Shown: piece by piece, positions 3,007-62,403 of the stretch
Layout: the number at the start of each line of letters is the position of its first letter
Numbering within the stretch: position 1 is the stretch's first letter
From: Nautilus pompilius
Lineage: Eukaryota; Mollusca; Cephalopoda; Nautilida; Nautilidae
Assembly (NCBI GenBank): GCA_018389105.1
Contig: JACATO010002134.1
Coordinates: 346,001 to 410,000 of the forward strand
Direction of reading: 5' to 3'
Length of the DNA: 64,000 bases
Notes under the pieces: model-generated
Database searches by the model: none
Told to the model about the DNA's origin: nothing
What the model saw: the letters and a program-made list of their open reading frames with translations, nothing else
Translations under genes and position numbers: made by a program

Positions 3007-5418
3007 CTGTACAGAGAAAGCTTCTCCGGTGTTTCTGCTCAGCTTTTGTTAGTTAGCAGTCACGGAGAAATCCCACAGGAGGGCGTCACTTTAGGACATC
3101 TCTCGTGCTCTTTAGCGAAACAAGTCACCAGTTTGCTTTTAGCCGGACACCCTGCGATCTCACGTTAGTTCTGGAGAAGCACCTGGTGAAACACTACGCC
3201 AGATGTGCTGGGAAGTTTTGGAAACATTCCGAGTTGTCCGCTTTTACTCCGCGAAAAACATTGTCCGGTCATTCATTTGATCATCTTAATAAATATACAA
3301 TGTTAACGTTTGCAGAACGACCAATCACCGCCTGAATCTCTGTCTCCGTCCCCACATTTAAAATTTTGTTTTTTTTTTTTTGCTTTTCCGTACAAAAGCC
3401 AGGCCGTTATTCTGGCATCCCACGGAAGAGAGCACGTCCATGGTCTACATGTACGGGGGAGCGTCGTCTCTGGAAATGGGCCCCCAGAGAGTAAAGTCGG
3501 GTGTCTTTTAAATTAGCTGCTAGCGCCGAGGGCACCTGATTCTCGGTACACTGGCAGAACTGCATCTGGTTAGTCTGTACTCCGCACCGCCGTCGATCAT
3601 TTGCTGGCTGTAAGTGCCTTGCATTGAATAACTCTCCTGCTTAAGGGAGGAAGGAATAACTAAACAGCGTTGTTATGGACTTCCGGTCCCTCTCACTGCA
3701 CGCGCCTTGCACGGTGAAATGCCAAGAATTTCCTGTAGCTGTTGCAATTTTGACATCACTGAAACAGCTTAATACGTTACGGCTTTCGACTGGAGCCATT
3801 GATGACAAGTGGGAAACAAAGGCCGTCGTCAGCTCGCCTGGTATGATATACATATTCACAGGCCTCCTGTACTTTAGATGTCAGTATTCTTCACAGACAA
3901 GTGGAAAATCGGATCTGCTAAAATGTTGTCCCGGTTTCTGACTTGGCGTGTTCACAACCATCTGTCAAGCCGATGAATTCAGAAAGACGGCGTGAAACGG
4001 GTCCTGGCATCTATTGATAGACGTCTAGGTTACGTTGGATGCTTCTCCATCCCAGCTTGAGAAGTGCGGGAATGCACCGCGTTTGCCACCAGCCCCCCGA
4101 AGCCCCGATGAATTCGGACGTTAAACCTGTTGAGCATTTAAGGGAGGCTACTGATGGAAGAAATAAAAGGCAAACGGGGCACGACAAACCCTTTCAGAAA
4201 TAAACCAAAGAAGTGACTGCAAACTTTATGGAAAACCCTGTGACTAGATCACCGTTGATTATCTGATAGATTTCACGCCCGGACACCTGCAGAGGTGCGC
4301 GATGTCCTCCCACCAGACGCAGAAAATAACCGACCCGACATGTACTGCACTTTCACTGTGCGCAGATATTATGGTGTTCACTCTCCGAGGGCAGCCATCT
4401 GTAAGTAATCTGTTAAGTCAATAAGTTTAATTATTTCGAGTCATCCACCACGGTGAGTAAGACATCTCTTGGAAACAAACATAAAGCTCTCATCACTCAA
4501 CACCTCATTAAATTACTTCCAGCTTTTACTGATACTAGAGTCAAAGCGCCTTCCCCACCAGTCAACTATACTAATCCACTCAGTTATGAACACTTGGGCA
4601 TTAATGTTTTTCCGAAGAGTTTTGACACTTGCTCATAAAAACAAACTCCGGGCTGCTTTTCTTGGGCTCTTTGTCGCTGCTGGGCGGGCGGTTCCTAACT
4701 ATCTATGCCCAGTGTGGGGAAACGAAAACCTTCACTCTGACGGCATCTTAACTCTTTTGATACCAGAAATTCTAAAAAAAAACTAGACCGGGGGGATAAG
4801 GGAATGAGCAGATTCCATACTACAGAAATTGTTTCCCGGTTATTAGTTTCCCCGGGCTAGCATCGTGCAATTAAAAGAAGCAGTTTTTAGTTTAATCCGC
4901 TTAAGTCATTGAACAGATAACAATAACCCGTGTCGTTAAAAATATCACATATTCAAACGTGATCCGCTCATCGGAGCGTGAATTCTTTGACCTCAAGACT
5001 TTCACTCGCCCCTTGGCTCCTCTTCATACATTTCAAACAAGAAAAACATCCAATCGGAATCTCCTAAATAAGAGACCTGCCGTCTATAATTCAAGCTTTT
5101 AACCTCTTTTCTGACAGATTCCCTGACCCACGGCCTTCCCGATTAACGCGCTGAAATATATTGGAACAGTTCGAACTCTGGTCCTCGAGAATCCCTCGGA
5201 ACCCACAACAGCACAGGGTGGCGCGCTAGAACCACCGAACTGCTGAGACTGAAGGGCAGGGTTCGGGGAACCACTCTGAGATGGCTTCTTTTCGCTCTTC
5301 AACGCCAGCCAGCCCGCGTGAGTTTCCTCCTGCATCTAAAAATAAAAGAGTTCTCATAGATACTCCTGCTAGATCGATGGAAATCAGTGCACAGCGAGCT
5401 GACCTCAGGTTCCGGTGT

Positions 5419-6762: not shown

Positions 6763-8909
6763 ATGTAATGATAAACTATCTGTCATTAAAAAAGAGGAAA
6801 AGAAAAGTCATGGGCATATTTTCATTAATGGCGACTCTCATGGGGTCAAGTTGCAAGCCAAATACATAGACAGAGAGATAACTACCGTAATTTAGTATCG
6901 CAGTACATAAGAAAATTGGAGAAAATAAGTGAGTCTGCAAAAAATTTAGACGTAAAAATTGAAACCCACCGGTTGCAAGCTGTTGGTTTTTGGAATCTTC
7001 GCCTCGAGGCGTCGTGACAAGTAATAATATGTCCGCTGATACGAACTGTAGAAGAATTGGCTGATATGCCTTCGAAGCAAATTAAGAAATATCTGCTGTC
7101 GCAATCAACCGTCTGTTCTTCAGAATGCTGACTTTCGAGAGTAGAAGTGCCACTTACTGACAGAAATACAGCGTCCATACATCAGGGGAAAAGTTTCAGA
7201 CTTGGCAGGCAAACCTGTTTTAGTATTGATTCACAATGAAACTTTAAAATTGCCTAAGGTCGCTGGCTAGAATGCCACTGCTTATTAATTCGCAGTGGCT
7301 TTTGGCCAGTACAGTTTTCAGAGGATTTTTACAAAACTGATATTTAATGATAATACCGGAGTAAGAGTATTTAAAATTTTTTAAAATATTTTCATTCTGA
7401 GTATGCTAATTATGTGTTGTTTGCACCGTAAGCAACTGTTTCCATATAAATATTTAATTTGTTTGAATTTTAATATGATCGAAAAGAGGTATATCCTAGG
7501 TTTACTTTGATTAAATAAATGTATGTCACTAATATCTGTTCGTAAGAACTATGAAAGAAGTGATTTAATTGCGCGTTTCCTCCCGATATTCATGGAAACC
7601 CACGAGAACAGAAGACTTGCGATACCCACTTGAACTGTTCAGCTGTCCTCGTGAATACACCGGATGTGCGACCAAATAACTAGAAATGGTTTTTCGAAGA
7701 AACATCAAGCAAACAGCAAAAAGACGGGTAAGGGGAAAGATAAAACAAGATAGAAGAAAAACTACTACGCAGGTTTCCGAGAGCTGCAAGAGGGTAAAGA
7801 GGACATCATTGGTTCCCAGACAGTAAGAAATGTACTGCCCGACGGCCGGAAGAAACAACGCATTCAGCAGTGAGAGAAATGGCGCAAAATGGCTACAGTA
7901 TGAAAAGGGACGGTCAACTTGAGGAATAGTATATGTTACATGCATGGAAAATGAAAGTTTTACGTTGCTACTTTTCCCATAAATCATATCACTGAATCCA
8001 TTGGTCAGACACCACAAGGTTACTTTTCATCCTTAAAATGTTTTTCAGGTTTTGGAGGCTCTGGCATGGAGCTTGGTTTTACAGGGGCTACTCAAAGGTA
8101 AAAGAGGGCATCTGATTGGTTGGCGACAAAAACACTAATTAAAAAAAATAATAATAGATTTTTTTTTTGTAACTCTGATTATTCTCCACTTAATTATATT
8201 ACATTTATATTTAACTATTTAACTAACACAGGATTGTAAGCGAATATAAATCGCATTTAGACAAAACGTACACTAATATACTTACTGATATTCCAAAGCG
8301 GTTTGTGTAGCCCGTAGATTCCAGTGCCCAACGGTCTTATCCATCACTGAACGACACGTTGGAGATTAATATTTTCCCATTTATTTATACCTACTCAACT
8401 AAATCTACATCACTATACTGGAAACCCCCCCAAAGTTCTGGGAACGAAGTAAATGGGACCCTTAAATGGACATTTAAAGTTAGCACGACGAACGGAATAA
8501 ATGGTGATTAGATGAGAGACTTCACTTTCCAAAGTGACGGATTTCGTTCTTGTTTTATTTAATGTGCACGAGAGAATAAATTAATTTTGACCAACAGATT
8601 AAATAAGTCATTTTAATGAACAGAACAGCCTTTTAAATTGCCCACGCAAAGTGAAAGTAAAGTAATAGGTGGCTAGTTAAAGTATTAAAAAAACAGTGAT
8701 TATTAGTTGCAGAAATATTTTTTCTTGGAGATTCTGCTTCAAATCTATTAAAAGTGTAGTATGGGAAATACATACGGAAACACAGAGCACACAAAAGATA
8801 TATATATATATAAATAATGAGTAGTTGCAAATGAAGAGATGTATATAATACATGCACAATACATTTTTACAGTAAATATACAAAAGCAAGATGAATATGT
8901 TTACAGTGC

Positions 8910-12845: not shown

Positions 12846-14354
12846 GTTGTATTATTAATTTTGTTGCCTTTTAGAATTTAAATTTTGAAATTCTAAGAAA
12901 ATAACATTTTACTGACAGTAATTCGTTCATTTTCCAGCAAATTTAATAGTTTCTTCCTGGTTTGTGATTAATAAAAAGATTCGAAAATTTATTTTACTGC
13001 TGAACATTTTCCTACCTCATCAGTTTAAAGCGCAAGTGTCCATAATTATTTCATATTTATGCAACATTTTAAAATAACCATTAATAAGATTTTAACTTCA
13101 TAGGATAAACATTTTGTAAAAGCGTGACTTCTGAGTAAAAGAGTTCCTTTCGGGGAGGCAACAAAAACTTTTCAAAAATATCTTTACGCTCAAATCGTAT
13201 GGTTATAGGAAGCCGTGTTGTTATCACCCATTAAGGGGCATTCCTCCAAAATTAGAGCAATCTCCAGCGACGTCAGCACAATCTCAGAGACCATTTCACT
13301 ACAAAGCGGAACCTTCCGTTTTGATGCCATGCAGTCGGCCTTCCCTATAAAACTTTAGCTAGGACTAAATGAATAGGAATAAGCTTCCGGAACACATCTG
13401 CCCAGAATACCATCGTAGGGCAAGCAGAAAATTACAGAAAAGTTAAGAAAATTCTAACGAGGCTGAGAACTCAATCTGATCCGTGACGAACCGGCGCCAG
13501 TAGCAGGAGATGTAGAGAGACTGTGAAGAGAAATTAATGTATTTATACAGACTTCCACCATCAACAGCAAACAAAAACAAACAAACGGCTCTGCTTCTGT
13601 TACTGTGTATATTTGGCATCGCCTTTTGCTGTTACTTTTCACTCTGCTAATTAAAATTTCGAAAACTCTGAGTGGACAAAAAAAACTGAGCACTAATGGC
13701 CAATGGCAATTCTTGTTTATAGTACTTTTAAATAAGGGTTTTTAGTTTAACGCTCTGAAGAGTGAATTTCAGTTCTTATCTCTGCCAACCCTCACACGCA
13801 CGGAGGCTCTACGGCCTCCATGTTTTATTTGGAAAAAGCATTTCCAGGATTAATTTATTCCGACCTGAAGCATCACGATTCCTTGTCAGCAAAACAGTCC
13901 CAATTCACAATTCAATTACGTAAAAACGATCAGGATTCGACGGCAGCTCGGCAGCGCTGTCAGGTGTTTTGTATTACTGGCTGTTGTTTTCGCATCCATT
14001 CCCGTATTTTTTTTCCTATCCTGTTGCCGGGGTGACAGGAAGGGTAATTTCATGTTCCGACGAATAGAATGGAGGAGAAGGACCGAGCCATTCCAGCTTC
14101 TTTTCATACAATCACAAAGAAAAGAATCGATATTTCAGATGCATGGAAGCATTCATTTGTAGGAATAAAAATGCTTTTCTCCATCCGATGATGATGATGA
14201 GGGTTAGGGTGGTGTTCTGTTCTCTGAGTCGTGTCCAGAGTGCTGGCTGGCTCCGTTGGTGGGAGAGATTCGGCCATTGGTGCGCGGGTTCGGGAACCAC
14301 GTTGATATAAGAAGTACGATTAATAACGATCTTAAAGTAACCTGCGCAGCGAAT
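12846..14354. other. Unassigned non-coding stretch
   Basis: AT-rich sequence without a recognisable gene. Open frames at 13454-13693 (-) and 13820-14035 (+) carry no motif. Confidence 0.5.
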
Positions 14355-14576
14355 CTTCTCTCTCCATCTCTCTCCACCTCTCTCTCTGTACTGACGTCAC
14401 CTCTCTCTATGTACTGACGTCATATCTCTGTAGTGACGTCTCCCTGTCTGTACTGACGTCATATCTCTCTCCCTCTCTGTACTGACATCATCTCTCTATA
14501 GTGACGTCATATCTCTCTATGTACTGACGTCATATCTCTCTCCCTCTCTCTGTACTGACGTAATCTCTGTAGTGAC

Positions 14577-14632
<56 letters not shown>
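14355..14632. repeat. CT-rich array with TGACGTCA palindromes
   Basis: CT dinucleotide runs are broken every 20-35 bases by (A)CTGACGTCA or AGTGACGTCA. I count six perfect TGACGTCA octamers and three one-base variants (TGACGTCT, TGACATCA, TGACGTAA), ending in a pure CT run of about 50 bases. TGACGTCA is the full cAMP-response element bound by CREB/ATF bZIP dimers; any regulatory role here is inference. Confidence 0.9.
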
Positions 14633-14634
<2 letters not shown>

Positions 14635-15529
14635 GACTCTTATCCAGGGGAAAAAAATTAAGGACGCCTCTCAGAGGTAGGCAGAGAATAACTAATCCCT
14701 CCAGCTCCCAGCCGCGGAAACAAATAAGGTAGCAGATGGAGTTAATGTGCGAGGCAGTTGTGCGTGCAGCGTTTTAATGAATTATAGAACGACCTTTAAA
14801 CTTCCCTGGTCGGTTGGCAAAACAAAAAAGTGAATCGGTACAGAGAAACGAACTGCGGGTGTTGACTTGTTTTAATCTATCAAAAAACACACGCAAACGG
14901 CTTTACATCCAATATTCTATATCGCGATATTAACTGTGGCGACAAGTAGACATTAGAAAACAGAACTCTTCTAAATATCGGTAATCAATCGATGTTTTTT
15001 CCGCGTGGTTTTGTCGGTTTAACAATTAAAAGTGTTAATATTCTATTAGTAGTTGCAGAGAAGGTGGTGACTCAGTGTAGTTTTTTTAAAAAAGAATCAT
15101 TGACCGATGACACAAAATCATTCCAGGAAGATATGGACAGTGAGGACTAGATGACCCCACTCACTTGAGAGCAAATACAGTCATTTAATGAATTATTCCG
15201 AGTAGCTTTATTATTGATAATTCTTTTGTACTGAAAATAATAGTAAAAATGCTAAACGTTTACAACCCAGGACAGGTTGGTCCAACTGCCCCGCCCCTAC
15301 TGAGGGTCAGATTACCAATTTGCCGATGGAGGGGCCTTGTGATTTTGTTTCCGTAGGAGGAAACGTTCAGGTAGATGAAGAAAATCATTTTACCTGACAT
15401 CATTTTTTTTTACATTTATAGCACAACCTCAAATGAGTGCAACAAAAATATAATGGAGAAGTTTGCTTTAAATTGGTTATTATGCAACAATCACAAAAAT
15501 TCATTAACAATTAATGAGACAACCATACA
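14633..15529. other. Unassigned non-coding stretch
   Basis: No gene seen. The segment at 14690-14820 has several ATTA/TAAT-type sites and little low-complexity sequence. The right part runs into the hAT fossil. Confidence 0.45.
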
Positions 15530-17000
15530 ATTTATCTTTGACTAAGTTTGCAGCATCAATGGAGATGCTCAATGTAGTGAGCCTGAGAGTGGAAACTAGT
15601 ATTTCATTGGTGATTCTGCTCCTTTGTTCATGAATTTATATGGTTCATTGTTGTTGAGAAGATACTTTCACAAAGGTAAGTATCTCCAAACATCAAAAGA
15701 ATTTTCAATCCAATGTAACACAATCTTTGGGGGGGGCAATCTCTGGGAATCATTTTCCAAAATCCTTCACATGAAATTGGCTATTTGCTTGGAAAAAATA
15801 TATCGGTCTGTATCTTACACAGTTCCATTTGATACTGGCTTGACTCTTCCTCTATTTTCACAACCACAGAATTATCGAACAGACACAAGCTGTTGCTTAT
15901 TTTCTGAAAGTCTTTTTAACCTGATGTTAAATTAATTTGAAGTTCAAAAATTATTTTCTCAAACTCTCTGAAACAAACTTCCTCAAATTTCCATGGTAGC
16001 TCTTTACAAGAGGGGAAATGCTCATGGTTGTTTTCTTGAATAAAGCATTTCAATATATCTAGTTTTCTTCAAAATCCGTGAATGTGACCAATCATGTTTG
16101 GCCTTTTCCTTGGAGGCAAAGGTTCAGTGTGCTAAGGTAAACAATGATGTCAGTCAAAAGACCAGTGTGCAGAGAATCAATGTCTTGCAAGTCCTCTTCA
16201 AAATTAAGTGATAACTTTGACCCGACCATTAAAATATGGTTCTATCTTTCTTAAGAGCAAAGAACTTGATAAGATTTTCCCAGCACTTATCCATCAAATT
16301 GTGTAACAAAGGATATCTGTGTGTCTGCCTGAACTTCATAAAGGGATAAGCTAAGCCTTTTCTGTCTTTGAGCACAGATGCTTCCTTCTATCATATTTAT
16401 AATTTTAACAACAATAAATCTGAGGAATTTGCCACAGTCTCTCTCCTGGTAAATGATATAATGAAAAAGAAAGCTCCCAATGCCATTTTGTCTCAGAAAA
16501 CCAGCTAAATCTTTTCTTTACTAGAACCATTAGTAACAATACAGGTGCATATGTATATTTTCAAGTACATTTGAAAAAGTGTTGTAAATGACAGAACTTT
16601 TCGTTATTGTTCACAACTCAACAAAATCCAATTGTTCTTGAATGTCAAAAACTGTTGTCAATTGTTCTTATGACAATTATAAGCTGATATGAATAAGTGA
16701 TATCACCACTTTCGTCCACAACAAACAATTTTCAATGAATGCCTTCAGCTTATTCTGAACAAGAGCATTCATTTCCACAACACATCTTCCTACTGCTTGG
16801 TATGATGAAAATGGCATACTTTCAGAATTGTTTGCCATCTTTTGTCTCCAAAACCTTAAGTCATTTAAAGTAGAGAATTCTTAATTATTCCACCATCCTT
16901 GAAGACTTTCTTACTTACTTACCAATTACAAGGCTGACGTCATAAAATATCATCAAACTTTGTCTGAGCAGTTTTAGATTTACAAAAAGTTTGTTTCTGT
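15530..17000 (-). pseudogene. hAT transposase fossil, GTF2IRD2/ZBED5/FAM200-like
   Basis: On the minus strand a decayed hAT transposase can be followed over about 1.4 kb in several frames. In order: ALVIGK.VSKKVFKDGG (an N-terminal helix region), a region around VVEMNALVQNKLKAF, LSTLNLCLQGKGQTWL, EHFPSCKELP, NSLCLFDNSVV, YQMELCKIQTD, then FGDTYLCESIFS and SRITNEILVSTLRLTT. The last two match the C-terminal dimerisation region of the group that includes the vertebrate domesticated genes GTF2IRD2, ZBED5 and FAM200 (family FGSTYLCEQ-FS and RSRLT-EHL---LRI-TT). Multiple stops and frameshifts make it a pseudogene. No BED zinc finger or terminal repeats were found. A gene domesticated intact is excluded by the stops. 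Confidence 0.75.
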
Positions 17001-17409: not shown

Positions 17410-17605
17410 GAGAGTCACAACAATGTGCCAGCAGCGGGAATTGAACCCGCGACCCTTAGGTCCTGAAGCCAACACGCTCACCACAATGTGCCGGCAGCGG
17501 GAATTGAACCCGGGACCCTTACGTCCTGAAGCCAACACGCTCGCCACAATGTGCCGGCAGCGGGAATTGAACTCGGGACCCTTAGGTCCTGAAGCCAGCC
17601 ACATT
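17410..17605 (-). repeat. Three tandem tRNA-like (SINE head) units, 63-bp period
   Basis: Three units repeat at an exact 63-bp spacing: the minus-strand B-box-like GGTTCAATTCC lies at 17437-17447 and 17500-17510, with AGTTCAATTCC at 17563-17573. The first has a perfect T-arm stem (GCGGG, loop TTCAATT, CCCGC). Upstream of each is an A-box-like TGGYGAGCGTG. Units two and three carry TGCCGGCA, a self-complementary octamer that could serve as both acceptor strands for neighbouring units. The anticodon arm does not pair well, so these are not functional tRNA genes but look tRNA-derived. Confidence 0.65.
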
Positions 17606-21008: not shown

Positions 21009-22030
21009 TTATTGATCAGAGCAAGTTCCATTACAATCAGTACACTTCTGCCAACGAGTTACAAGCGCATTTATACCATTTTGAAATAAATCTGGATTTC
21101 TGGAATCGATAAACTGTTGGAAGGCAGTTTCAGTTGCTGCTTGGTTGGAGAAGGATTTCATATGGAGGAAGCTGTCGAGGTGTGTGAAAAGATGGTGGTC
21201 TGTGGGAGAAAGGTTTGGTGAATAGGCTGGGTGACGGAGAACTTCGTAACGTAGTGTGTTCAGTTTCTGAAGAGTCACTTTTGCAACATTAGCATGAGCA
21301 ACTTCCTGGAGCAGGATTGAGCCTCTTTGATTCACCATTGCCAGGTATTGTTTGGAGAGTTTCTGATGAACAACGTTTAATTCACGACAGTACCTTTCAA
21401 CTGTGATGGTTTCGCCAGGTTGCAAGAAGTTATAGTGGATGACAGCAGTTGCAGTCCTCCAGACAGTGACCATGACCTTCTTTGAGAGGAGGCTGGGTTT
21501 TGGAATGTAGTTAGGTGCCTTGTCTCTGTCGAGCCACTGTGCTGATCGTTTGCGATTGTCGTAAAGGATCTCTTTTTTATCACACAATGATTCGGTCAAG
21601 AAATGGGTTGTTTTTGTATCTTACGACAAGCGAAGAGCAGATCTCCAATCGATGATTTTGTTGTTGTCCATTCAACTCGTGAGACACCCAGTTGTCAAGC
21701 TTTTCCACTTGGCCGATTGCGTCAAGATGCCAGGAAACAGTCGCAGTGCTTACGTCAAACTCTCCAGCAATTTCTCGCACTGTTTTTCTTGGATTGGTTT
21801 CAGCTGAGGCTTTCAGACGGTCGTCATCGCAGCTGGAAGGACGTCCACTACGTTCCTCATCTTCGAGGCTCACATCTCCTGATCGAAACATTGCAAACCA
21901 TCGTTGTACTGTGCGCTCATCTGCTGTGTCCTCGCCCCATGATGGCTTAATGTTACGAGTTGTCTCGCTCGCTTTGTAGCCTCATTTGAACTCGTGAAGC
22001 AAAACAGCACGAAAAACTTTTCTATCCATG
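21009..22030 (-). pseudogene. Mariner transposase pseudogene (SETMAR/Hsmar1-like)
   Basis: Three frames must be joined to follow the protein. The N-terminal piece (about 21890-22030) retains VLFCF, then residues in shifted frames; a middle frame (21580-21891) begins MFRSGDVSLEDEERSGRPSS and holds the helix-turn-helix region (TVREIAGEFDVSTATVSWHL); the C-terminal frame (21009-21599) covers the catalytic domain and ends RWQKCTDCNGTCSDQ. The first catalytic Asp is kept (CDKKEILYD, family GDEKWILYD). The second is lost: the family LLHDNARPH reads LLQEVAHAN. The third is kept (SPTDHH). Frameshifts and the lost Asp show it is inactive. Closest in my knowledge is the transposase domain of human SETMAR, but that reflects the shared mariner subfamily and not the SET-domain fusion. 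Confidence 0.92.
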
Positions 22031-22830: not shown

Positions 22831-25418
22831 TACCTTAAATCAGTACCCTTAAACTCAGTATCTATCCTACTATTATTAATTATTTGTAAATAGTAAGATC
22901 GATATGAAGGTGAGCAGCTTGTTTACTACAATGAAATGTAGATTGGAAGCGGTAACTAAAAGTAATCTGTTTCAGTGCCATGACTAAATTCTTTTTATTT
23001 ACTCTTGACATGGAAAGTCTATAGAAAACGAGCCAAACCACTTTCAGTACAGTTCTGTATATTTAAAATACAAATGTTGCCTTTAAAAGCCAATCCATCT
23101 GTAATTAATAAATTCTGAAATGGCAAAGCAAAAGAAAACATTATATACAAAAGCAGGAAATATTTTTTAAAAAATGGCATGATGAAATTCCCTTCTTAGT
23201 CAGACTCTGCAGCTGGCTTAAAAAGTTTGGAGTCTGTTCTGAGCACAGACTTTTTCTCCAACTATGACCCAATACAGGGTTTATGACAATACATTTTAAT
23301 TCCCCCAAATCTATGAAAAATTGTACTTGCTTTATTTTTTAAAAAAAAGTTTATACCAAACTGTTTGTAGTTCGACATTTGGTAATCACATCGGTGTGTG
23401 TGTGTGTGTGTGTCACGTGTCGCGTGATGTAGCCCGCGCTTTTACCTGCCCATATAAGCTAAGGGTGGTTTTTTTATGTATGCTCCTACCGATTACATTT
23501 GCGGTGTCTCTATGTGATGTCGCGCATCAGTTCGGGGACGCGTCTTACTCGAGTCTCGACTGCGTGCGGCGATATCTAGCAACGTCCGCGAACTGGGTGC
23601 AGGACAGCAGTCTTATGTAGTACGTGATCTTACCTGCACCACCTGTACATTTCTTGGAGGGGCTTGTCTCCATGTTCGGGCGATTTGGACAAGTAACCTC
23701 GCGTCCCGCTACAAACATTTGCTGACATTAATCGCCGTATAATGGCGAAAGGTTTATATTAAAAAAAAAAAAAAGGCCCAAAATGCCGAGACTAAATTTA
23801 AAGGCACTGAAAAATGGTATCTTTCATGGAATTTTCGTTTATATTTGTTTTTTTTTAAATAAATCTACCCGTAGTCCGAGTGTTTGATACCCTTCCTTAC
23901 TCACCATCTTTATGCATCAGCATCGAGAAAAGTCTTCGTTGTATTTGTAACCGTCTTAGAATCACCGTTCAGGTGAACTGATACTGCAAGTTACTTCTCT
24001 TAATCGCTGAATGTTATTGTTGTTTTAACGAAGTCTCTCGTTGCCCTGGGCCTTCAAGGTGCTCCCTTGCCCGGTTATCATTTTCTTTAGCATCACATAA
24101 CATCTGAATCACCCCAGATCCACCGTCTCGCACAATCACAATTTGCATTCTTTCTTCATCAACCACCGCGCTCTTCGCCGACTGATGGTCACCGAGCATA
24201 CATCAGCTTGCGATTCTCTCTCCCCCACCCTCGGCGGGTCTGATAGTAAGGGATTGCCAGTTATTAACTTCGGCAATATTTCCCTGCGCTCTACTGATCG
24301 GGGCTTCTTCGGAGCCCCTTTTTGCTGCCAGCTACCGAATCCCGCGAATGTCCGCTCGCAATTTTCTTTTTTTTTTCTCTTCTCAACCGAGGAACGTGAA
24401 GGAAGAAGAAACAGAAGAAATGATGATTGAAAATGCGAGAAATACGAGTTTCGGTCTTGAATTTTAGAACTCAGAAAACCGGGAGATAAGAAAGAAGTGC
24501 GACGACGTAGAATATCAGAAAAAAAACCGCCGGAAGTCCAGATGGCAGCGACCTCTGGCGTGTGTTTCTGCTGGCCCCGTAGTTCGAAAATACGTGCGCG
24601 TTTTTCGTATTTATTTATCGTTGTGACCTCGTCTTGTATGGGCTCTCGTTGCATTCCTCCGTCAGAGAACTTTCCCTCCAGTTATTAGCTACGAGCAACT
24701 CTATCATTTATCAGCCCGAAAACGATTTATCGCCAAAAAAATATACCAAGCACCGGCTGGAATCCAATTCCAACAAACGTAAATTCGAAATCAATTTGTC
24801 GACCGGCTCTTTTTCGAGTTTCTGCGCCTGCCCACTTCTTCTTCTTCTTCATCATTCCCCCCTCCCCCACCAATCGCTGATGGATTTCAATTAGGTGTAA
24901 ATAACTCACATCTTCTTTGATCTTTCTTGCCCCCCCCGGTTACTTTATGCGTCTGCCGATCAATTTGAGGAAAACGGAGGTGACAGATACGGCGCTGATT
25001 ACGAATCGTTCAAAGGAATCTCCGCGTAGCTCGCTTCATTGCATCCGCAGCTCTTATCACGGCTGACCGGATTCTACCGGCGGCTTTCTGACCATAAGGG
25101 ACCGTGTCACCTAAAACAATACCTATCCGGGCGAGCTGGGGCCAGAGCGGAGATCCCGCTCAAGCAGGAAATCTAAAACCAACGCAGTTCCTCACAGATT
25201 AATAGTCGTCTGCGTCATTCAGATTGCGCCAGTTCTTCAATGGAATCAAGTCAGTACTTTACTTCAAAGGAATACTTTTGATGTTTCGCCGATAGTTTGA
25301 TTCTGACTTCAAAAGTGACTTTCTCTATACTTTCCTATCAAACATGGAAATAAGGCAACCATCTTTGTGTTAGGTTACACGTGTGTATTGTGCATTTTAA
25401 TTAAATTATCATGGGAAA
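22831..25418. other. Unassigned non-coding stretch
   Basis: AT-rich left part, mixed CpG-richer right part. A TG microsatellite occurs at about 23394-23413. A 172-codon minus-strand frame (24136-24654) overlaps other frames and carries no motif I recognise; I do not call it. Confidence 0.5.
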
Positions 25419-25918
25419 CATCTCCATCTCTCCCTCTTCCCCTCTCTATCGATCTCCCCACCCCTTCATCTCTCTTTCCACGTCTCTCTCCCCCCCACCT
25501 CTCCACGTTTCTCCAGATCTCCACGTCTCTCTCTCCTCCTCTCCATCTCTCTCTCCACGTCTCTCTCTCCCCCCTCTCCATCTCTCTCTCCCCTCTCCAT
25601 CCCTCTCTCCACGTCTCTCTCCAAGTCTCTCTCTCCATCCCTCTTTCCACGTCTCTCTCCCCCCCACCTCTCCACGTTTCTCCAGATCTCCACGTCTCTC
25701 TCTCCTCCTCCTCTCCATCTCTCTCTCTCTCCTCCTCCTCTCCATCTCTCTCTCCACGTCTCTCTCCCCCCTCTCCATCCCTCTCTCCACGTCTCTCTCT
25801 CTCTCTCTCCATCCCTCTCTCCACGTCTCTCTCTCCCCCCTCTCCATCCCTCTCTCCACGTCTCTCTCCCCCCTCTCCATCTCTCTCTCTCTCTCCCCCC
25901 TCTCTCTCTCTCTCTCTC
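25419..25918. repeat. CT-rich tract with ccacgtctctctc units
   Basis: Half a kilobase of nearly pure pyrimidine on the plus strand. Irregular units of CT runs carry TCCATC, TCCACGTC and TCCAGATC. It stays open in several frames on both strands (up to 253 codons) only because it lacks stop triplets. It resembles the TGACGTCA arrays but has CACGTC instead. Confidence 0.95.
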
Positions 25919-31362: not shown

Positions 31363-31800
31363 ATCTCTCCATCTCTCTCTTTATACTGATGTCATCTCTC
31401 TCTCTATATATATACTGATGTCATCTCTCTTTCTCTACTGATGTCATCTCTCTCTCTATATACTGATGTCATCTCTCTCTCTATATATATACTGATGTCA
31501 TCTCTCTCTCTCTACTGATGTCATCTCTCTCTCTATATATACTGATGTCATCTCTCTCTCTATATATACTGATGTCATCTCTCTATATATATACTGATGT
31601 CATCTCTCTTTCTCTACTGATGTCATCTCTCTCTCTATATACTGATGTCATCTCTCTCTCTATATATATACTGATGTCATCTCTCTCTACTGATGTCATC
31701 TCTCTCTCTATATATACTGATGTCATCTCTCTCTCTATATATACTGATGTCATCTCTCTATATATATACTGATGTCATCTCTCTCTCTCTCTATACTGAT

Positions 31801-31855
<55 letters not shown>

Positions 31856-34457: not shown

Positions 34458-34497
34458 ATGAGCATCAAAGTAAAACCCAATCCCTAACGCTCTAAAG
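34458..34497 (+). other. Candidate 40-bp exon with strong splice-site matches
   Basis: A pyrimidine-rich tract ending TTTTATTGCAG (AG at 34456-34457) is followed 40 bases later by AAAG/GTAAGT (GT at 34498-34499), a full consensus 5' splice site. No transcript or neighbouring exon supports it, and the piece is out of frame length (40 is not a multiple of three). Its 3' end is the first unit of the 33-bp minisatellite. Confidence 0.25.
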
Positions 34498-34827
34498 GTA
34501 AGTAAAAACCAAATCCCTAACGCTCTAAAGGTAATTAAAAACCAAATCCCTAACGCTCTAAAGGTAAGTAAAAACCAAATCCCTAACGCTCTAAAGGTAA
34601 TTAAAAACCAAATCCCTAACGCTCTAAAGGTAATTAAAAACCAAATCCCTAACGCTCTAAAGGTAATTAAAAACCAAATCCCTAACGCTCTAAAGGTAAT
34701 TAAAAACCAAATCCCTAACGCTCTAAAGGTAATTAAAAACCAAATCCCTAACGCTCTAAAGGTAATTAAAAACCAAATCCCTAACGCTCTAAAGGTAAGT
34801 AAAAACCAAATCCCTAACGCTCTAAAG
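34478..34827. repeat. 33-bp minisatellite, 11 copies, each with a donor-like site
   Basis: The unit (CTAACGCTCTAAAGGTAATT plus an A-rich part, AAAAACCAAATCC) occurs 11 times with almost no change. After CTAAAG the units read GTAAGT (three), GTAATT (seven) or GTATTT (the last). Because 33 is a multiple of three, the minus strand stays open and would read a repeated 11-residue motif (FRALGIWFLIT). I regard that frame as a by-product. Confidence 0.95.
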
Positions 34828-37800
34828 GTATTTATCCGTGTATGTTGCTGCAAAGAAAATGCTTTGGAAAAATCACAGAAGAAAGACAGTTGTGAGTTAT
34901 CATTTACCAAATTTGGAGGAAAAGAAACCAAAACTGGAGTTATATCTCAACGTTCATAGCTTGGCTCCGAATTATCGCCTAAATCTAGTAACCAAAATGT
35001 AGCGTATGTCAGGTATGCTCGCCGTTTTCAGGAATTTCGAAGATGGCGCCGGTATGTCCCGTTGGTCCCTTAAACCCACTTTTTCACATAACTTATTTTA
35101 AAATTCACTTCCGGGGTTTCGTATCTCAAAAAAAAAAGAAGAAGAAGAAGAAGGGGGGGGGGATAACTTATCATACCTGATGTACTGCCCGGCGCAGACT
35201 CGGAAATAATCTCCTACCTGGCAAAATGGCGTCTGGTATGAAAACGAGTCATTTCTGTTTTAGCGCTCCCTCTGTCGACGACTCTTGTTTAACGATTCTC
35301 ACACTTTAGGGGATCATAAATTCTTGACAGTTTTCTCGAAAACAGGCTACTCTGCCCAAGAAGTAAACCACATTTCTTCCTCCCTCCACATTTATTGATT
35401 TGTGCCGCCGCTGTAGTCTAGCTGGTGCTTGGCGGTATAGAGACGAAGCCACTTCCCCCCGAAAGACTCTATTCGCTTTTCACTACTCACCGATTATGCG
35501 ACAGGGAGAAGGATAAATTATACATCATAAACTGTTGTTGTTGTTTGTTTTTTTTCTTGCGAGCGGCGCAAAGTCATAGAACACCACCCCGTTATATGCA
35601 CCCGTTGGTCTTCCGACGATTTATCTTCCGCGACAAAATCAATATTTCCTTTAGACGTAAGCATAATTAACGACTCATCCTAAGAGGGTATTGTCACTAA
35701 ACCCTGTGCTAAAAGTTACGCAAAATGATCCGCTGTTTGTTTCGGAGTGGAAGCCGGTGCGTGGTGGGAGAAATCTGCTGTTAGTTTAGGTTGTAAACGT
35801 TTATTTCTTTGCTTCGGTCTTTGCCAAAGATAAAAAGAAAAAGATCTTTGCTTGACGAGTCTTCTTTCTCACAACAATTAGAAGAAAGAAAAAAAAAAAC
35901 CAACAATTTTTATTATTTTTCTTTTTAACAGAAGATTCCCCCCCCCCTCTCCCAAAAAAACCTGTTCTCCCACTTTTGAGGGCAAAGCCTCGAGTTAAAA
36001 AGAACACCCCGACACCATAACGAGGCTCGTCCTCTTTTTAAAATCTATCACATGTCTGCGTCCACCGTGTTTTACCGAGCAATGCTGAGAGATTACCTCC
36101 ATCAGAATCCGAAATACATCTGTCATGTAATTATTTCTGACTGATCAATCGTCGTGGCGCTATTACTGTGTCAACAAATCAAAGCAAGAACTAGGGAACA
36201 GTAACGATTTTTTAAAATATATATTGTGCACGTGGGGAATGCCATATCTCATCGCACTCGCCCCGCCCCTCCCCCCTCCGGGACTAATAGGTGTTTGTTT
36301 CCTACACACAAATGTATCATTCAAATTGCTTCACCACAGGCTGAGTAAAATATGTGGTCTTCAGAGGAACGATCATCACTTGAGCAATGTCCGCTATGTG
36401 CCCTCTGACGTCATGTTTTCCTACTGTAATCTTGCGTCTTGCACAAGAAAGCGAAATCCTGTGAAACCGGATGCTGCATTTTGTAAATATTTGATTATAT
36501 ATTGTGACTAAATGAAAAAAAAAATTAAAGATTGTAATTAATGCATATTCATGATAACGTGTCTAACTTATTATTAGTAAAGCTGATTTTTCGGCGTTAA
36601 TCGCCAACAGCATAAAATGGCGGTCCAAGGAAGATGATTCTGTAGAACAATTTCGGATTCAATAAGCGCGGAACTTAGTTAGATGATACTCTGTGTTTCC
36701 TACAGCTTAGTTTATCTTTTGTATGCATAATTCTTAATTACAGTGTGACACGTAACGCCGCATGACTATGGACGGGGGAGGTGAGCATATGGCACACGAA
36801 ATGGGACGTGCGTCGTACTGGCTGTTTGCTAACAGCTTCACTCCTGACGCAGCACTGCGGAAAGTCGCTGGGGGGAGGGGGCGTGCGGTTCGACCCGACT
36901 CTGGCGAAGACCGCATCCGGCGTCGGGATCAGACCTGGGCAGCCAGAAGCGCTCTGGTCTTACTTACGCTTTCAGGAATCCTCGTCGGCTTTACCAGGCG
37001 CGGTCTTCGTCACCGTGGAAGACAGAATAAAGGGGAGGGAACCGGGGAAGCCCCCGAATATGCTTGCATTCTTCTGGGGCTGTCACGCCGTCCTGACTGC
37101 AAGAACTACGTGCAACAGTCCGAGAACCGTCCGCAAGAAAGGTGCCAAACTCACTCGTGACCACCTCGAGACGGTGTCGTACGAAACGTTGAGAATGTAA
37201 ATATATATATAGACGATTTCCTTTTAATGGAGACCTTCTGTCGCGTCCTCACGTTCGTACGACTGCTGATAGGCCGACACGCTCAGCGCATCTACTGTAG
37301 CCGATCCGTGAAGATGACGTAGCCTTGTCGGTACGTCCTGATGCTGTGTTGGAATGCAGGACGAGGCAGGGCTTTGTCGATGTTTCGCGATTTCTCTCTG
37401 TCTGCTTCAGCGATAAAATTTTGACGCTTCGTGGTGAGCTATACAACAGCAATCGCTTTATTGGCAGCTAATCACATTTCCCACAAACCTATAGGTCTTC
37501 TCTTGGCAGATAATACTCGTATTGCACAAAACATTGAACATGACCAAGATAAAGAAAACTTGGCAAGCAGTGCTCTCTGCATATTGGATGACACGATCAA
37601 ATCTGGTTAAGAAGACCTAGCAGACCCTTTCTCGGCAGAAGTAACTGTTAACCCACAAGTGAATATCAAGCAGTACGTGTAACAGACTTTCGAAATAAGA
37701 TAGGGAACAACAGATTTCTCAACCAACCAAGCAACCAGAGGGACCATATCCAGAGCAGCTTCGACTGTCGGCAACTTCAGATATGTTTTGTATTGGCTAC

Positions 37801-38220: not shown

Positions 38221-39230
38221 GTTAAGTACCCAAGGATGTGTCTACGTGATGGATGATGAGCCAGTTGAGTAACCCAGGGTACGTGATAGATGACCAGCCA
38301 GTTAAGTACCCCAGGGTGTGTCTACGTGATAGATGACGAGCCAGTTGAGTTACCCAGGGTATGTTCTGTACGTGATGAATGACGAGCCAGTTAAGTACCC
38401 CAGGGTACATGATAGATGACCAGCCAGTTAAGTACCCCAGGGTGTGTCTACGTGATAGATGACGAGCCAGTTGAGTTACCCAGGGTACATGATAGATGAC
38501 CAGCCAGTTAAGTACCCCAGGGTGTGTCTACGTGATAGATGACGAGCCAGTTGAGTTACCCAGGGTACATGATAGATGACCAGCCAGTTAAGTACCCCAG
38601 GGTGTGTCTACGTGATAGATGACGAGCCAGTTGAGTTACCCAGGGTACATGATAGATGACCAGCCAGTTAAGTACCCCAGGGTGTGTCTACGTGATAGAT
38701 GACGAGCCAGTTGAGTTACCCAGGGTACATGATAGATGACCAGCCAGTTAAGTACCCCAGGGTGTGTCTACGTGATAGATGACGAGCCAGTTGAGTTACC
38801 CAGGGTACATGATAGATGACCAGCCAGTTAAGTACCCCAGGGTGTGTCTACGTGATAGATGACGAGCCAGTTGAGTTACCCAGGGTACATGATAGATGAC
38901 CAGCCAGTTAAGTACCCCAGGGTGTGTCTACGTGATAGATGACGAGCCAGTTGAGTTACCCAGGGTACATGATAGATGACCAGCCAGTTAAGTACCCCAG
39001 GGTGTGTCTACGTGATAGATGACGAGCCAGTTGAGTTACCCAGGGTATGTTCTGTACGTGATGAATGACGAGCCAGTTAAGTACCCCAGGGTACATGATA
39101 GATGACCAGCCAGTTAAGTACCCCAGGGTGTGTCTACGTGATAGATGACGAGCCAGTTGAGTAACCCAGGGTATGTTCTGTACATGATTGATGACGAGCC
39201 AGTTAAGTACCCCAGGGTACATGATAGATA
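38221..39230. repeat. 80-bp minisatellite with two related half-units
   Basis: The phrase GACGAGCCAGTTGAGTTACC recurs at 38461, 38541, 38621, 38701, 38781, 38861, 38941 and 39021, an exact 80-bp step. Each 80-mer is made of two similar 40-base halves, one with GTGATAGATGACGAGCCAGT and one with CATGATAGATGACCAGCCAG. The ends hold diverged units with GTATGTTCTGTACGTGATGA. About 12 copies in all. Confidence 0.95.
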
Positions 39231-40382: not shown

Positions 40383-40383
40383 T

Positions 40384-40428
<45 letters not shown>

Positions 40429-42893
40429 GACGTCCTCTCTCTCTGTAATGACATCATCTCTCTATTATGACGTCCTCTTCCTCCCTGTTATGACGTCCTC
40501 TCTTTATCTGTAATGACGTCATCTCTCTATTATGACGTCCTCTTCCTCCCTGTTATGACGTCCTCTCTTTATCTGTAATGCCGTCATCTCTCTATTATGA
40601 CGTCCTCTTCCTCCCTGTTATGACGTCCTCTCTTTATCTGTAATGCCGTCATCTCTATTATGACGTCCCTTCCTCCCTGTTATGACGTCCTCTCTCTCTG
40701 TAATGCCGTCATCTCTCTATTATGACGTCCCTTCCTCCCTGTTATGACGTCCTCTCTCTCTGTAATGCCGTCATCTCTCTATTATGACGTCCTCTTCCTC
40801 CCGTTATGACGTCCTCTCTTTATCTGTAATGCCGTCATCTCTCTATTATGACGTCCTCTTCCTCCCTGTTATGACGTCCTCTCTTTATCTGTAATGACGT
40901 CATCTCTCTATTATGACGTCCTCTTCCTCCCTGTTATGACGTCCTCTCTTTATCTGTAATGACGTCATCTCTCTATTATGACGTCCCTTCCTCCCTGTTA
41001 TGACGTCCTCTCTCTCTGTAATGCCGTCATCTCTCTATTATGACGTCCTCTTCCTCCCTGTTATGACGTCCTCTCTCTCTGTAATGACGTCATCTCTCTA
41101 TTATGACGTCCCTTCCTCCCTGTTATGACGTCCTCTCTTTCTCTGTAATGACGTCATCTCTCTGTTATGACGTCCTCTCTCTGTAATGCCGTCATCTCTC
41201 TATTATGACGTCCTCTTCCTCCCTGTTATGACGTCCTCTCTTTATCTGTAATGACATCATCTCTCTATTATGACGTCCTCTTCCTCCCTGTTATGACGTC
41301 CTCTCTTTATCTGTAATGACGTCATCTCTCTATTATGACGTCCCTTCCTCCCTGTTATGACGTCTCTCTTTTCTCTGTAATGACGTCATCTCTCTGTTAT
41401 GACGTCCTCTCTCTGTAATGACGTCATCTCTCTGTTATGACGTCCTCTCTCTCTGTATTGACGTCATCTCTCTATTATGACGTCCCTTCCTCCCTGTTAT
41501 GACGTCCTCTCTCTCTGTAATGCCGTCATCTCTCTATTATGACGTCCTCTTCCTCCCTGTTATGACGTCCTCTCTCTCTGTAATGCCGTCATCTCTCTAT
41601 TATGACGTCCTCTTCCTCCCTGTTATGACGTCCTCTCTTTATCTGTAATGACGTCATCTCTCTATTATGACGTCCTCTTCCTCCCTGTTATGACGTCCTC
41701 TCTTTATCTGTAATGACGTCATCTCTCTATTATGACGTCCCTTCCTCCCTGTTATGACGTCCTCTCTTTATCTGTAATGACGTCATCTCTCTATTATGAC
41801 GTCCCTTCCTCCCTGTTATGACGTCCTCTCTTTATCTGTAATGCCGTCATCTCTCTATTATGACGTCCCTTCCTCCCTGTTATGACGTCCTCTCTTTATC
41901 TGTAATGCCGTCATCTCTCTATTATGACGTCCCTTCCTCCCTGTTATGACGTCCTCTCTCTCTGTAATGCCGTCATCTCTCTATTATGACGTCCTCTTCC
42001 TCCCTGTTATGACGTCCTCTCTTTATCTGTAATGACGTCATCTCTCTATTATGACGTCCTCTTCCTCCCTGTTATGACGTCCTCTCTTTATCTGTAATGC
42101 CGTCATCTCTCTATTATGACGTCCCTTCCTCCCTGTTATGACGTCCTCTCTTTATCTGTAATGCCGTCATCTCTCTATTATGACGTCCCTTCCTCCCTGT
42201 TATGACGTCCTCTCTTTATCTGTAATGACATCATCTCTCTATTATGACGTCCTCTCTTTATCTGTAATGCCGTCATCTCTCTATTATGACGTCCCTTCCT
42301 CCCTGTTATGACGTCCTCTCTCTCTGTAATGCCGTCATCTCTCTATTATGACGTCCTCTTCCTCCCTGTTATGACGTCCTCTCTTTATCTGTAATGACGT
42401 CATCTCTCTATTATGACGTCCTCTTCCTCCCTGTTATGACGTCCTCTCTTTATCTGTAATGACGTCATCTCTCTATTATGACGTCCCTTCCTCCCTGTTA
42501 TGACGTCCTCTCTTTCTCTGTAATGACGTCATCTCTCTGTTATGACGTCCTCTCTCTGTAATGACGTCATCTCTCTGTTATGACGTCCTCTCTCTCTGTA
42601 ATGACGTCATCTCTTTATTATGACGTCCCTTCCTCCCTGTTATGACGTCCTCTCTCTGTAATGACGTCATCTCTCTATTATGACGTCCTCTCTCTCTGTT
42701 ATGACGTCCTCTCTCTGTAATGACGTCATCTCTCTATTATAACGTCCTCTTCCGCCCTGTTATGACGTCATCTCTCTCTGTAATTGCGTCATCTCTCTAT
42801 TATGATGTCCTCTCTATGTGTTATGACGTCATCTCTCTCTGTACTGACATCATCATCATCATCTCTCTCTCTCTCTCTCCCCCTCTCTCTCTC
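40383..42893. repeat. 2.5-kb CT-rich satellite with GACGTC palindromes
   Basis: About 40 units of roughly 60-65 bases. A typical unit is TATTATGACGTCC, a TCTTCCTCCC block, TGTTATGACGTCC, a TCTCTTTATC block, then GTAATGACGTCATCTCTC. I count about 22 perfect TGACGTCA, about 16 TGCCGTCA and three TGACATCA; most units also carry two TATGACGTCC. Length variants (loss of the TTTATC block, CCTCTTCC or CCCTTCC) are shared by runs of adjacent units, as expected from unequal exchange. Confidence 0.95.
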
Positions 42894-43360: not shown

Positions 43361-44287
43361 TACAATTATGGCTGCTAGTGTAGGTCAGTACACATAAACA
43401 ATTAGGGCTGTCGGTGTAGGTCAGTATACATAAACAATTACGGCTGCCAGTGTAGGTCAGTATACATAAACAATTAGGGCTGTCGGTGTAGGTCAGTACA
43501 CATAAACAATTAGGGCTGTCGGTGTAGGTCAGTACACATAAACAATTACGGCTGCCAGTGTAGGTCAGTATACATAAACAATTAGGGCTGTCGGTGTAGG
43601 TCAGTACACATAAACAATTACGGCTGCCAGTGTAGGTCAGTATACATAAACAATTAGGGCTGTCGGTGTAGGTCAGTACACATAAACAATTACGGCTGCT
43701 AGTGTAGGTCAGTATACATAAACAATTAGGGCTGTCGGTGTAGGTCAGTACACATAAACAATTACGGCTGCCAGTGTAGGTCAGTATACATAAACAATTA
43801 GGGCTGTCGTTGTAGGTCAGTATACATAAACAATTACGGCTGCCAGTGTAGGTCAGTATACATAAACAATTACGGCCGCCAGTGTAGGTCAGTACACATA
43901 AACAATTACGGCCGCCAGTGTAGGTCAGTACACATAAACAATTAGGGCTGTCGGTGTAGGTCAGTACACATAAACAATTACGGCCGCCAGTGTAGGTCAG
44001 TATACATAAACAATTACGGCCGCCAGTGTAGGTCAGTACACATAAACAATTACGGCCGCCAGTGTAGGTCAGTATACATAAACAATTACGGCCGCCAGTG
44101 TAGGTCAGTACACATAAACAATTAGGGCTGTCGGTGTAGGTCAGTACACATAAACAATTACGGCCGCCAGTGTAGGTCAGTATACATAAACAATTACGGC
44201 CGCCAGTGTAGGTCAGTACACATAAACAATTACGGCCGCCAGTGTAGGTCAGTACACATAAACAATTACGGCCGCTAGTGTAGGTCA
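43361..44287. repeat. 36-bp minisatellite, about 25 copies
   Basis: The unit GTGTAGGTCAGTATACATAA followed by ACAATTACGGCTGCCA repeats about 25 times. Variants alternate: ACGGCTGCCA, ACGGCCGCCA and AGGGCTGTCG. The period is a multiple of three and the minus strand is stop-free, giving a 319-codon frame (43329-44288) of 12-residue repeats such as TYTGGRNCLCVL with two Cys each. There is no signal peptide, no unique sequence beyond a short C-terminal tail and no sign of codon-level selection visible by eye, so I annotate the repeat and not a gene. Confidence 0.93.
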
Positions 44288-48194: not shown

Positions 48195-48270
48195 GAGAGA
48201 GGAGAGAGAGAGAGAGAGAGAGGAGAGACGAGAGAGGGAGAGAGAGAGAGAGAGCGAGAGAGAGAGAGAG

Positions 48271-48331
<61 letters not shown>

Positions 48332-48496
48332 GACGTCATAACAGAGAGAGGTGACGTCATAACACAGAGAGAGAGAGGACGTCATAACAGAGAGAGGTGA
48401 CGTCATAACACAGAGAGAGATGACGTCAGTACAGAGAGAGGTGACGTCATAACACAGAGAGAGATGACGTCAGTACAGAGAGAGAGAGAGAGAGAC
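48195..48496. repeat. GA-rich array with TGACGTCA, inverted relative to the others
   Basis: GA runs on the plus strand are interrupted by GGTGACGTCATAACA, GATGACGTCAGTACA and GGACGTCATAACA. I count five perfect TGACGTCA and two GGACGTCAT. Reverse-complemented, it reads TGTTATGACGTC-CT runs and TGTACTGACGTCA-CT runs, the same unit words as at 14.4 and 40.4 kb. Confidence 0.93.
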
Positions 48497-56185: not shown

Positions 56186-56242
56186 TCCCCTCTCTCTCTT
56201 TCTGTACTGACGTCATCTCTCTCTCTCTCTCTCTTTCTCTCT
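56186..56242. repeat. Short CT tract with one TGACGTCA
   Basis: CT runs on either side of CTGTACTGACGTCATCTC, the same word as in the larger arrays. Confidence 0.9.
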
Positions 56243-62294: not shown

Positions 62295-62403
62295 ATCTCT
62301 CTCTCTCTATGTAACGTCATCTCGGTCATCTCTCCTCTGTAACGTCATCTCTCTCTCTCTCTCTCTCTCCATCTCACTCTTTTCCCCCATCTCTCTCTCT
62401 TTC
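62295..62403. repeat. CT tract with two TAACGTCA words
   Basis: CT runs are broken twice by TGTAACGTCATCTC, one base from the TGACGTCA core of the other arrays, and followed by CCATCTC runs. Confidence 0.9.

Follow-up and report, generated by a model that had tools for sequence, protein, structure and literature searches.

Dispersed satellite arrays in which one repeat has entered another are known from the euchromatic satellites of Drosophila, such as the 1.688 and Rsp-like families on the X chromosome. Their spread is reportedly ascribed, in the primary study of the X-linked satellites, to local exchange and circular DNA. A close described case is that of the Rsp-like satellite entering 1.688 arrays (PMC7919458). 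The Nautilus family analyzed here shares with these satellites its dispersed arrays and the entry of one repeat into another, but its host tract is a CT microsatellite, its word units are spaced approximately 17–25 bp apart, and both species and sequence are unrelated; euchromatic location is a feature of the Drosophila satellites, and the comparison drawn here is one of array organization.

Two further systems bear a likeness to this family. The core of its word is identical to that of the CRE/ATF site and of the fission-yeast M26 hotspot (ATGACGT), although the octamer shows no special conservation here and the likeness is one of sequence. In fission yeast, ATGACGT constitutes the ade6-M26 hotspot bound by Atf1-Pcr1 (PMC9775316), and in budding yeast three tandem M26 copies (ATGACGTCAT) raised recombination approximately 4-fold (PMC3534124). 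Interrupted or compound microsatellites and minisatellites resemble the family in their mostly 2-bp linker steps, local expansion and private higher-order repeats; here, however, one and the same interruption recurs at thousands of places that are not allelic, and several loci can have a multi-word haplotype in common. Literature searches yielded no paper that combines cephalopods, Nautilus, satellite DNA and tandem repeats, nothing relevant on cephalopods and CRE among the matches listed, and no such repeat among the matches listed for TGACGTCA with satellites; TACTGACGTCAT appeared only in the context of a vaccine paper, and GACGTCATCTCTCT was not found.

Within the 64-kb window, i.e., the whole stretch of DNA analyzed, the CRE octamer TGACGTCA occurs 37 times. 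Thirty-four of these copies lie inside CT-rich arrays at 14.4, 40.4–42.9, 48.4 (minus strand) and 56.2 kb, and the three isolated ones, at 16935, 36406 and 44343, have no CT arrays around them. In 100 dinucleotide shuffles, 0.68 copies were expected (SD 0.80, maximum 4) and none reached 37, which agrees with the estimate of about one chance copy per 64 kb made in an earlier, sequence-only reading of this DNA. The octamer counts of that reading (22 in the main array, 6 at 14 kb, 5 at 48 kb and 1 at 56 kb) were reproduced as well, and the variant relatives that it had placed near 31363 and 62295 correspond to TGATGTCA and TAACGTCA, respectively. The arrays and loci of the window are as follows:

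14355–14632, plus strand: 14 kb array, made of GTACTGACGTCAT(A) words, with 6 exact TGACGTCA (14392–14573) and a terminal (TC)25
31363–31855, plus strand: 31 kb array of 17 words, with TGATGTCA in 17 of 17 (31387–31797) and a terminal long CT tract
40384–42893, plus strand: main array of 116 words, with a spacing of 17–23 bp, an approximately 65-bp three-word higher-order repeat and CT tracts on either side
48195–48496, minus strand: 48 kb array, with 5 exact TGACGTCA (48352–48465), 2 TGACGTCC and a long CT tract 3'
56186–56242, plus strand: 56 kb locus, with one exact GTACTGACGTCAT within a CT tract and TGACGTCA at 56208
62295–62369, plus strand: 62 kb locus, with two degenerate GTAACGTCAT words in a CT tract and TAACGTCA at 62312 and 62340

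The 116 words of the main array, a count that covers the searched forms and leaves out words more distant from the core, carry 70 TGACGTCC, 22 TGACGTCA, 16 TGCCGTCA and 8 other octamers, so that TGACGTCA is a minority form there. In the 31 kb array, the octamer has been lost in all words (0 of 17 full sites). The TAACGTCA form at 62 kb is best read as a GTACTGACGTCAT from which CTG would have been deleted, leaving GTA joined to ACGTCAT. A separate CT-rich array at 25418–25918 of the window is composed of CCACGTC words with zero TGACGTCA; it may be distantly related to the family, or may be a CT array that carries ACGT independently.

The word shared by the arrays is longer than the octamer and consists of GTACTGACGTCAT embedded in CT; along the CT strand, the arrays inspected repeat the module (CT)n-GTACTGACGTCAT(A)-(CT)n. 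The exact 13-mer was present 208 times and in 34 out of 40 loci, 33 of the 40 having been found via the word itself or via likeness to the 14 kb array, while CTCC replaces GTAC 5' of the octamer in 12 loci. With respect to the CT strand, the word always points the same way in the copies that could be classed. A total of 176 copies of TACTGACGTCAT had CT flanks and none had GA flanks; 57 fell between the thresholds, and the 20 inspected among these were all located in CT arrays. The inverted arrangement TCTCTATGACGTCAGTAC had one occurrence genome-wide, a count that refers to TCTCTATGACGTCAGTAC alone; the matching forward 18-mer is TCTCTGTACTGACGTCAT.

The genome searched comprised 727.6 Mb (~728 Mb) in 2,558 contigs. 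It contained 27,722 exact matches to TGACGTCATCTCTC (14,324 + 13,398) compared to 5 for the reversed control, and 3,741 matches to the variant TGATGTCATCTCTC compared to 8 for its control, i.e., a ratio of approximately 7:1 between the CpG form (TGACGTCATCTCTC) and the TpG form (TGATGTCATCTCTC) in context. The sequence-only reading had proposed to count the octamer against a control and inside versus outside CT arrays. TGACGTCA was found 93,914 times genome-wide and the reversed palindrome ACTGCAGT 19,528 times, and a 170 kb sample (the window plus 11 other stretches) held 48 TGACGTCA in a CT/GA context and 4 outside. Among the 11 non-window stretches, TGACGTCA was present in one, L025. Perfect CT/GA tracts of at least 20 bp formed 9 merged loci in the 170 kb, 4 of them without the word. 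The 17-base word also gave 5 matches in a viral and 2 in a prokaryote collection, by estimate no excess over chance.

From contig C1, which carries 72 copies at 22 loci, we roughly extrapolated a number of about 8,500 arrays genome-wide; the figure is a rough one because the loci are unevenly spread, 17 of the 22 on C1 being located inside 335 kb (p = 0.0004). Tandem arrays of one sequence family lie at many non-allelic loci, and the dispersed satellite family proposed from the window is borne out at the genome-wide level, with copies on either strand and in numbers well beyond chance.

With regard to array growth, word spacings below 40 bp were analyzed in 28 arrays without the main one, where 232 were odd and 28 even, with peaks at 17, 21, 23 and 25; in the main array, 97 were odd and 16 even. 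This bias indicates that linkers change mostly by 2-bp (CT) steps. A fixed 21-bp helical phasing was rejected, as spacings of 17, 19, 21, 23, 25 and on were observed. Two of the higher-order patterns tested were private: the main array's 36-bp word, with 15 copies, and the pattern of L040, with 5, were each confined to one array, indicating that not every array spreads. The view that the window does not represent one local expansion stands for the word, which is dispersed, and does not stand for this 36-bp higher-order word, all 15 genome copies of which belong to the main array.

Multi-word haplotypes gave a divided picture, two of those tested being private to one array and two common to non-allelic arrays. 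Exact two-word segments of 27–63 bp were common to 25 of 378 array pairs, with the main array left out. The 31-bp haplotype TGACGTCATATCTCTCCTGACGTCATCTCTC was present in 64 copies at 35 loci on 19 contigs and on both strands, and its loci formed 29 pairs at a distance of 300 kb or less (17 of the 29 same-strand) compared to 0.49 expected at random. Contig C1 is biased for this haplotype, because it was found there; without C1, 14 such pairs were counted against 0.33 expected. For the comparison variant TGATGTCATCTCTC, the first 100 of its 3,741 places gave 21 pairs versus 17.8 expected from density and, at 100 kb, 14 versus 5.9, and the haplotype clustering may be due in part to the fact that the family loci are themselves clustered. 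Array similarity was 0.196 within contigs and 0.123 between them (label permutation, p = 0.013), and neighbouring arrays shared variants more than distant ones did, as expected of a dispersed satellite family. Clusters of the shared haplotype lie at the start of C1 (7.9–263 kb) and near the end of C356 (1.62–2.06 Mb of 2,083,311 bases), as if both contigs were neighbours on one chromosome.

A 30-mer haplotype was restricted to three loci, C1:23.8k(+), C1:262.9k(-) and C356:1810k(-), the C1 pair lying 239 kb apart. In all three, the shared part starts after a CT tract and CT tracts bound the locus. The 5' outer flanks differ in 3 of 3, and the 3' outer flanks differ between the two C1 loci.

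The sequences surrounding the arrays bear on how the word came to be dispersed. Fifty-six flanks of at least 80 bp (out of 58 possible) from 29 arrays, 22 of which had been picked via exact 14-mer matches on contigs C1 and C2, shared with one another only matches of 16 and 24 bp, with the called ends being imprecise for a few arrays. Similarly, when 70-bp flanks were taken from 7 arrays, all 14 matched themselves alone genome-wide, and when positions 13700–15300 of the window were used as a query, all 96 non-self matches fell at query 654–950, the array part (with 40 scored among 2,590 candidates). In 27 loci, direct or inverted repeats on the two sides of the array, sought as target-site duplications and inverted ends, showed no excess, and an empty-site search using joined flanks matched the loci themselves only. 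A transposon or SINE that carries the CT-word array as an internal or terminal part would fit a word dispersed on both strands in tens of thousands of copies, and the window does hold a transposase remnant and a tRNA-like repeat; however, with single-copy flanks, no shared flanking element and neither target-site duplications nor terminal inverted repeats in the sampled arrays, we regard such a carrier as very improbable. Large segmental duplications, which would bring arrays to neighbouring places and account for the regional clustering of haplotype-sharing arrays, were likewise sought in sampled arrays and not found. Within clusters, the 18 flanks compared, from 10 loci of which 9 have the shared haplotype, are unrelated apart from short matches of 40 bp (78% identity) and 52 bp (81%), and the clusters contain both orientations, which makes this explanation highly improbable. 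Finally, the word could have arisen repeatedly by mutation within CT tracts, which are common here, and word variants do exist. Such a convergent origin is scarcely conceivable given the fixed orientation and an exact 13-mer in 34 of 40 loci (even though the word itself or likeness to the 14 kb array had led to 33 of these), and the exact 27–63 bp two-word segments shared between loci, as well as multi-word haplotypes common to loci with unrelated flanks, would be hard to obtain in this way.

The fixed orientation, the CT boundaries, the absence of a carrier and the local, both-strand clustering of haplotypes point instead to short segments having been copied into CT tracts. We therefore consider it probable that the family is a dispersed satellite which has grown by slippage and unequal exchange and of which short word-plus-CT segments have been copied into further CT tracts, chiefly close by. 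The pattern comes from the data themselves, whereas we infer the enzymology: arrays would grow through slippage and unequal exchange, and a new locus would be founded when ectopic conversion or template switching places a copy of a short piece of an array in a further CT tract. The homology for this step would come from the CT tracts, and near targets would be favoured by their proximity in cis; another route, for example circular DNA, may do the copying instead. The copying itself would be read from the pattern within one assembly, in which no empty site or allele was seen. If so, the family would offer a natural system for satellites that colonize a genome without an evident transposon, and the shared haplotypes would serve as tags for the source and distance of each copied array segment.

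The presence of the full octamer raised the question of whether the arrays are maintained for protein binding, and the sequence-only reading had suggested that they could act as enhancers or as a bZIP sink. According to this proposal, the CRE octamers would be kept by selection for CREB/ATF factors, and several observations are in line with it: there are approximately 94,000 full CRE octamers genome-wide, the CpG form prevails over the TpG form by about 7:1 in context, single variants occur on average in 3.6 of 40 loci per octamer position compared to 5.0 of 40 per GTAC position, and the window has a CpG observed/expected ratio of 0.95, suggesting that many sites may be unmethylated and bindable. 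However, the octamer positions are kept no better than the adjacent T-3 and A-2, which show single variants in 1 of 40 loci each against 0 to 7 of 40 at the octamer positions (plain counts, no significance test) and which vary least, one octamer position excepted. Thus, the consensus octamer is present, but octamer-specific constraint was not found across the 40 loci. Moreover, full sites make up 22 of 116 words in the main array and 0 of 17 in the 31 kb array, and spacings follow mostly 2-bp steps rather than one fixed protein phasing. Since the two arrays are mostly or wholly without full sites, and the neighbouring TA is kept equally well, selection for CREB/ATF binding is not supported and this function appears unlikely. 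Decay at CpG was also considered and rejected: of the two CpG positions in the word, one is variable in 3 and the other in 7 of the 40 loci, which does not clearly exceed the variation at the remaining positions. Together with the CpG ratio of 0.95, this makes heavy germline methylation of the arrays seem unlikely. Tens of thousands of full CRE octamers represent a burden for any CREB/ATF factor in this genome.

A related possibility, akin to the suggestion of the sequence-only reading that the palindrome may help the repeat to spread, is that the heptamer ATGACGT matters, and that ATF/CREB-type binding at this M26-type motif would promote breaks leading to expansion and ectopic copying. Read along the GA strand, the common word is ATGACGTCAGTAC and includes the heptamer, which is present on either strand in 202 of 323 words of the 28 arrays without the main one; in the main array, 92 of 115 words still have it, compared to 22 with the full octamer. 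On the other side, the 31 kb array, one of these 28, has expanded though the heptamer is in 0 of its 17 words, single positions of the heptamer show variants in anything from 0 to 10 of the 40 loci and are therefore not specially kept, and the 7-bp motif had no significant association to breaks across the budding yeast genome (PMC3534124). We thus consider the hotspot explanation to be quite unlikely. Its strongest form, in which the CRE/M26 core is the engine of the spread, deserves very little credence: a germline ATF/CREB-type factor would open chromatin and provoke breaks at word-bearing CT tracts, CT-homologous repair would copy the word nearby, and a self-propagating, transposase-free hotspot repeat would thereby have seeded the approximately 8,500 arrays. 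The retention of the heptamer over the octamer in the main array is in line with this idea, and the CT-word arrays make the notion of a self-spreading hotspot motif testable. Under the segment-copying explanation that we favour, the CRE octamer would be a passenger and any bZIP binding a by-product.

Whether minisatellites in general are associated with ACGT cores was examined as well. Such cores were present in 10 of 24 arrays compared to 2.6 expected, and the association was dismissed, because outside the family the values were 5 of 18 versus about 1.9, by estimate not significant. One stretch, L023 (G000:C1570:50001-60000), contains two inverted arrays at 3358–3857 and 6823–7175 of an unrelated 37-bp minisatellite, CGACGTCATGTGATTACGTTATAGACGAGGCTGTAAT, that includes the hexamer palindrome GACGTCAT.

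Several other repeats and insertions were recorded. The genome contains at least 117 nuclear COX1-like mitochondrial fragments on many contigs (e.g., C112:262789-263529). Within the window, positions 17415–17597 comprise approximately three tandem 63-bp tRNA-like copies, of which 17426–17495 passes the Rfam tRNA cut-off, and the remnant of a Mariner-type transposase (Transposase_1, HTH_48), which reads in two overlapping frames, is located at 21009–21981 on the minus strand. Minisatellites lie at 34472–34834 (33 bp), 38243–39229 (40/80 bp) and 43362–44287 (36 bp), the last of which reads on the minus strand as a stop-free frame of 330 residues.
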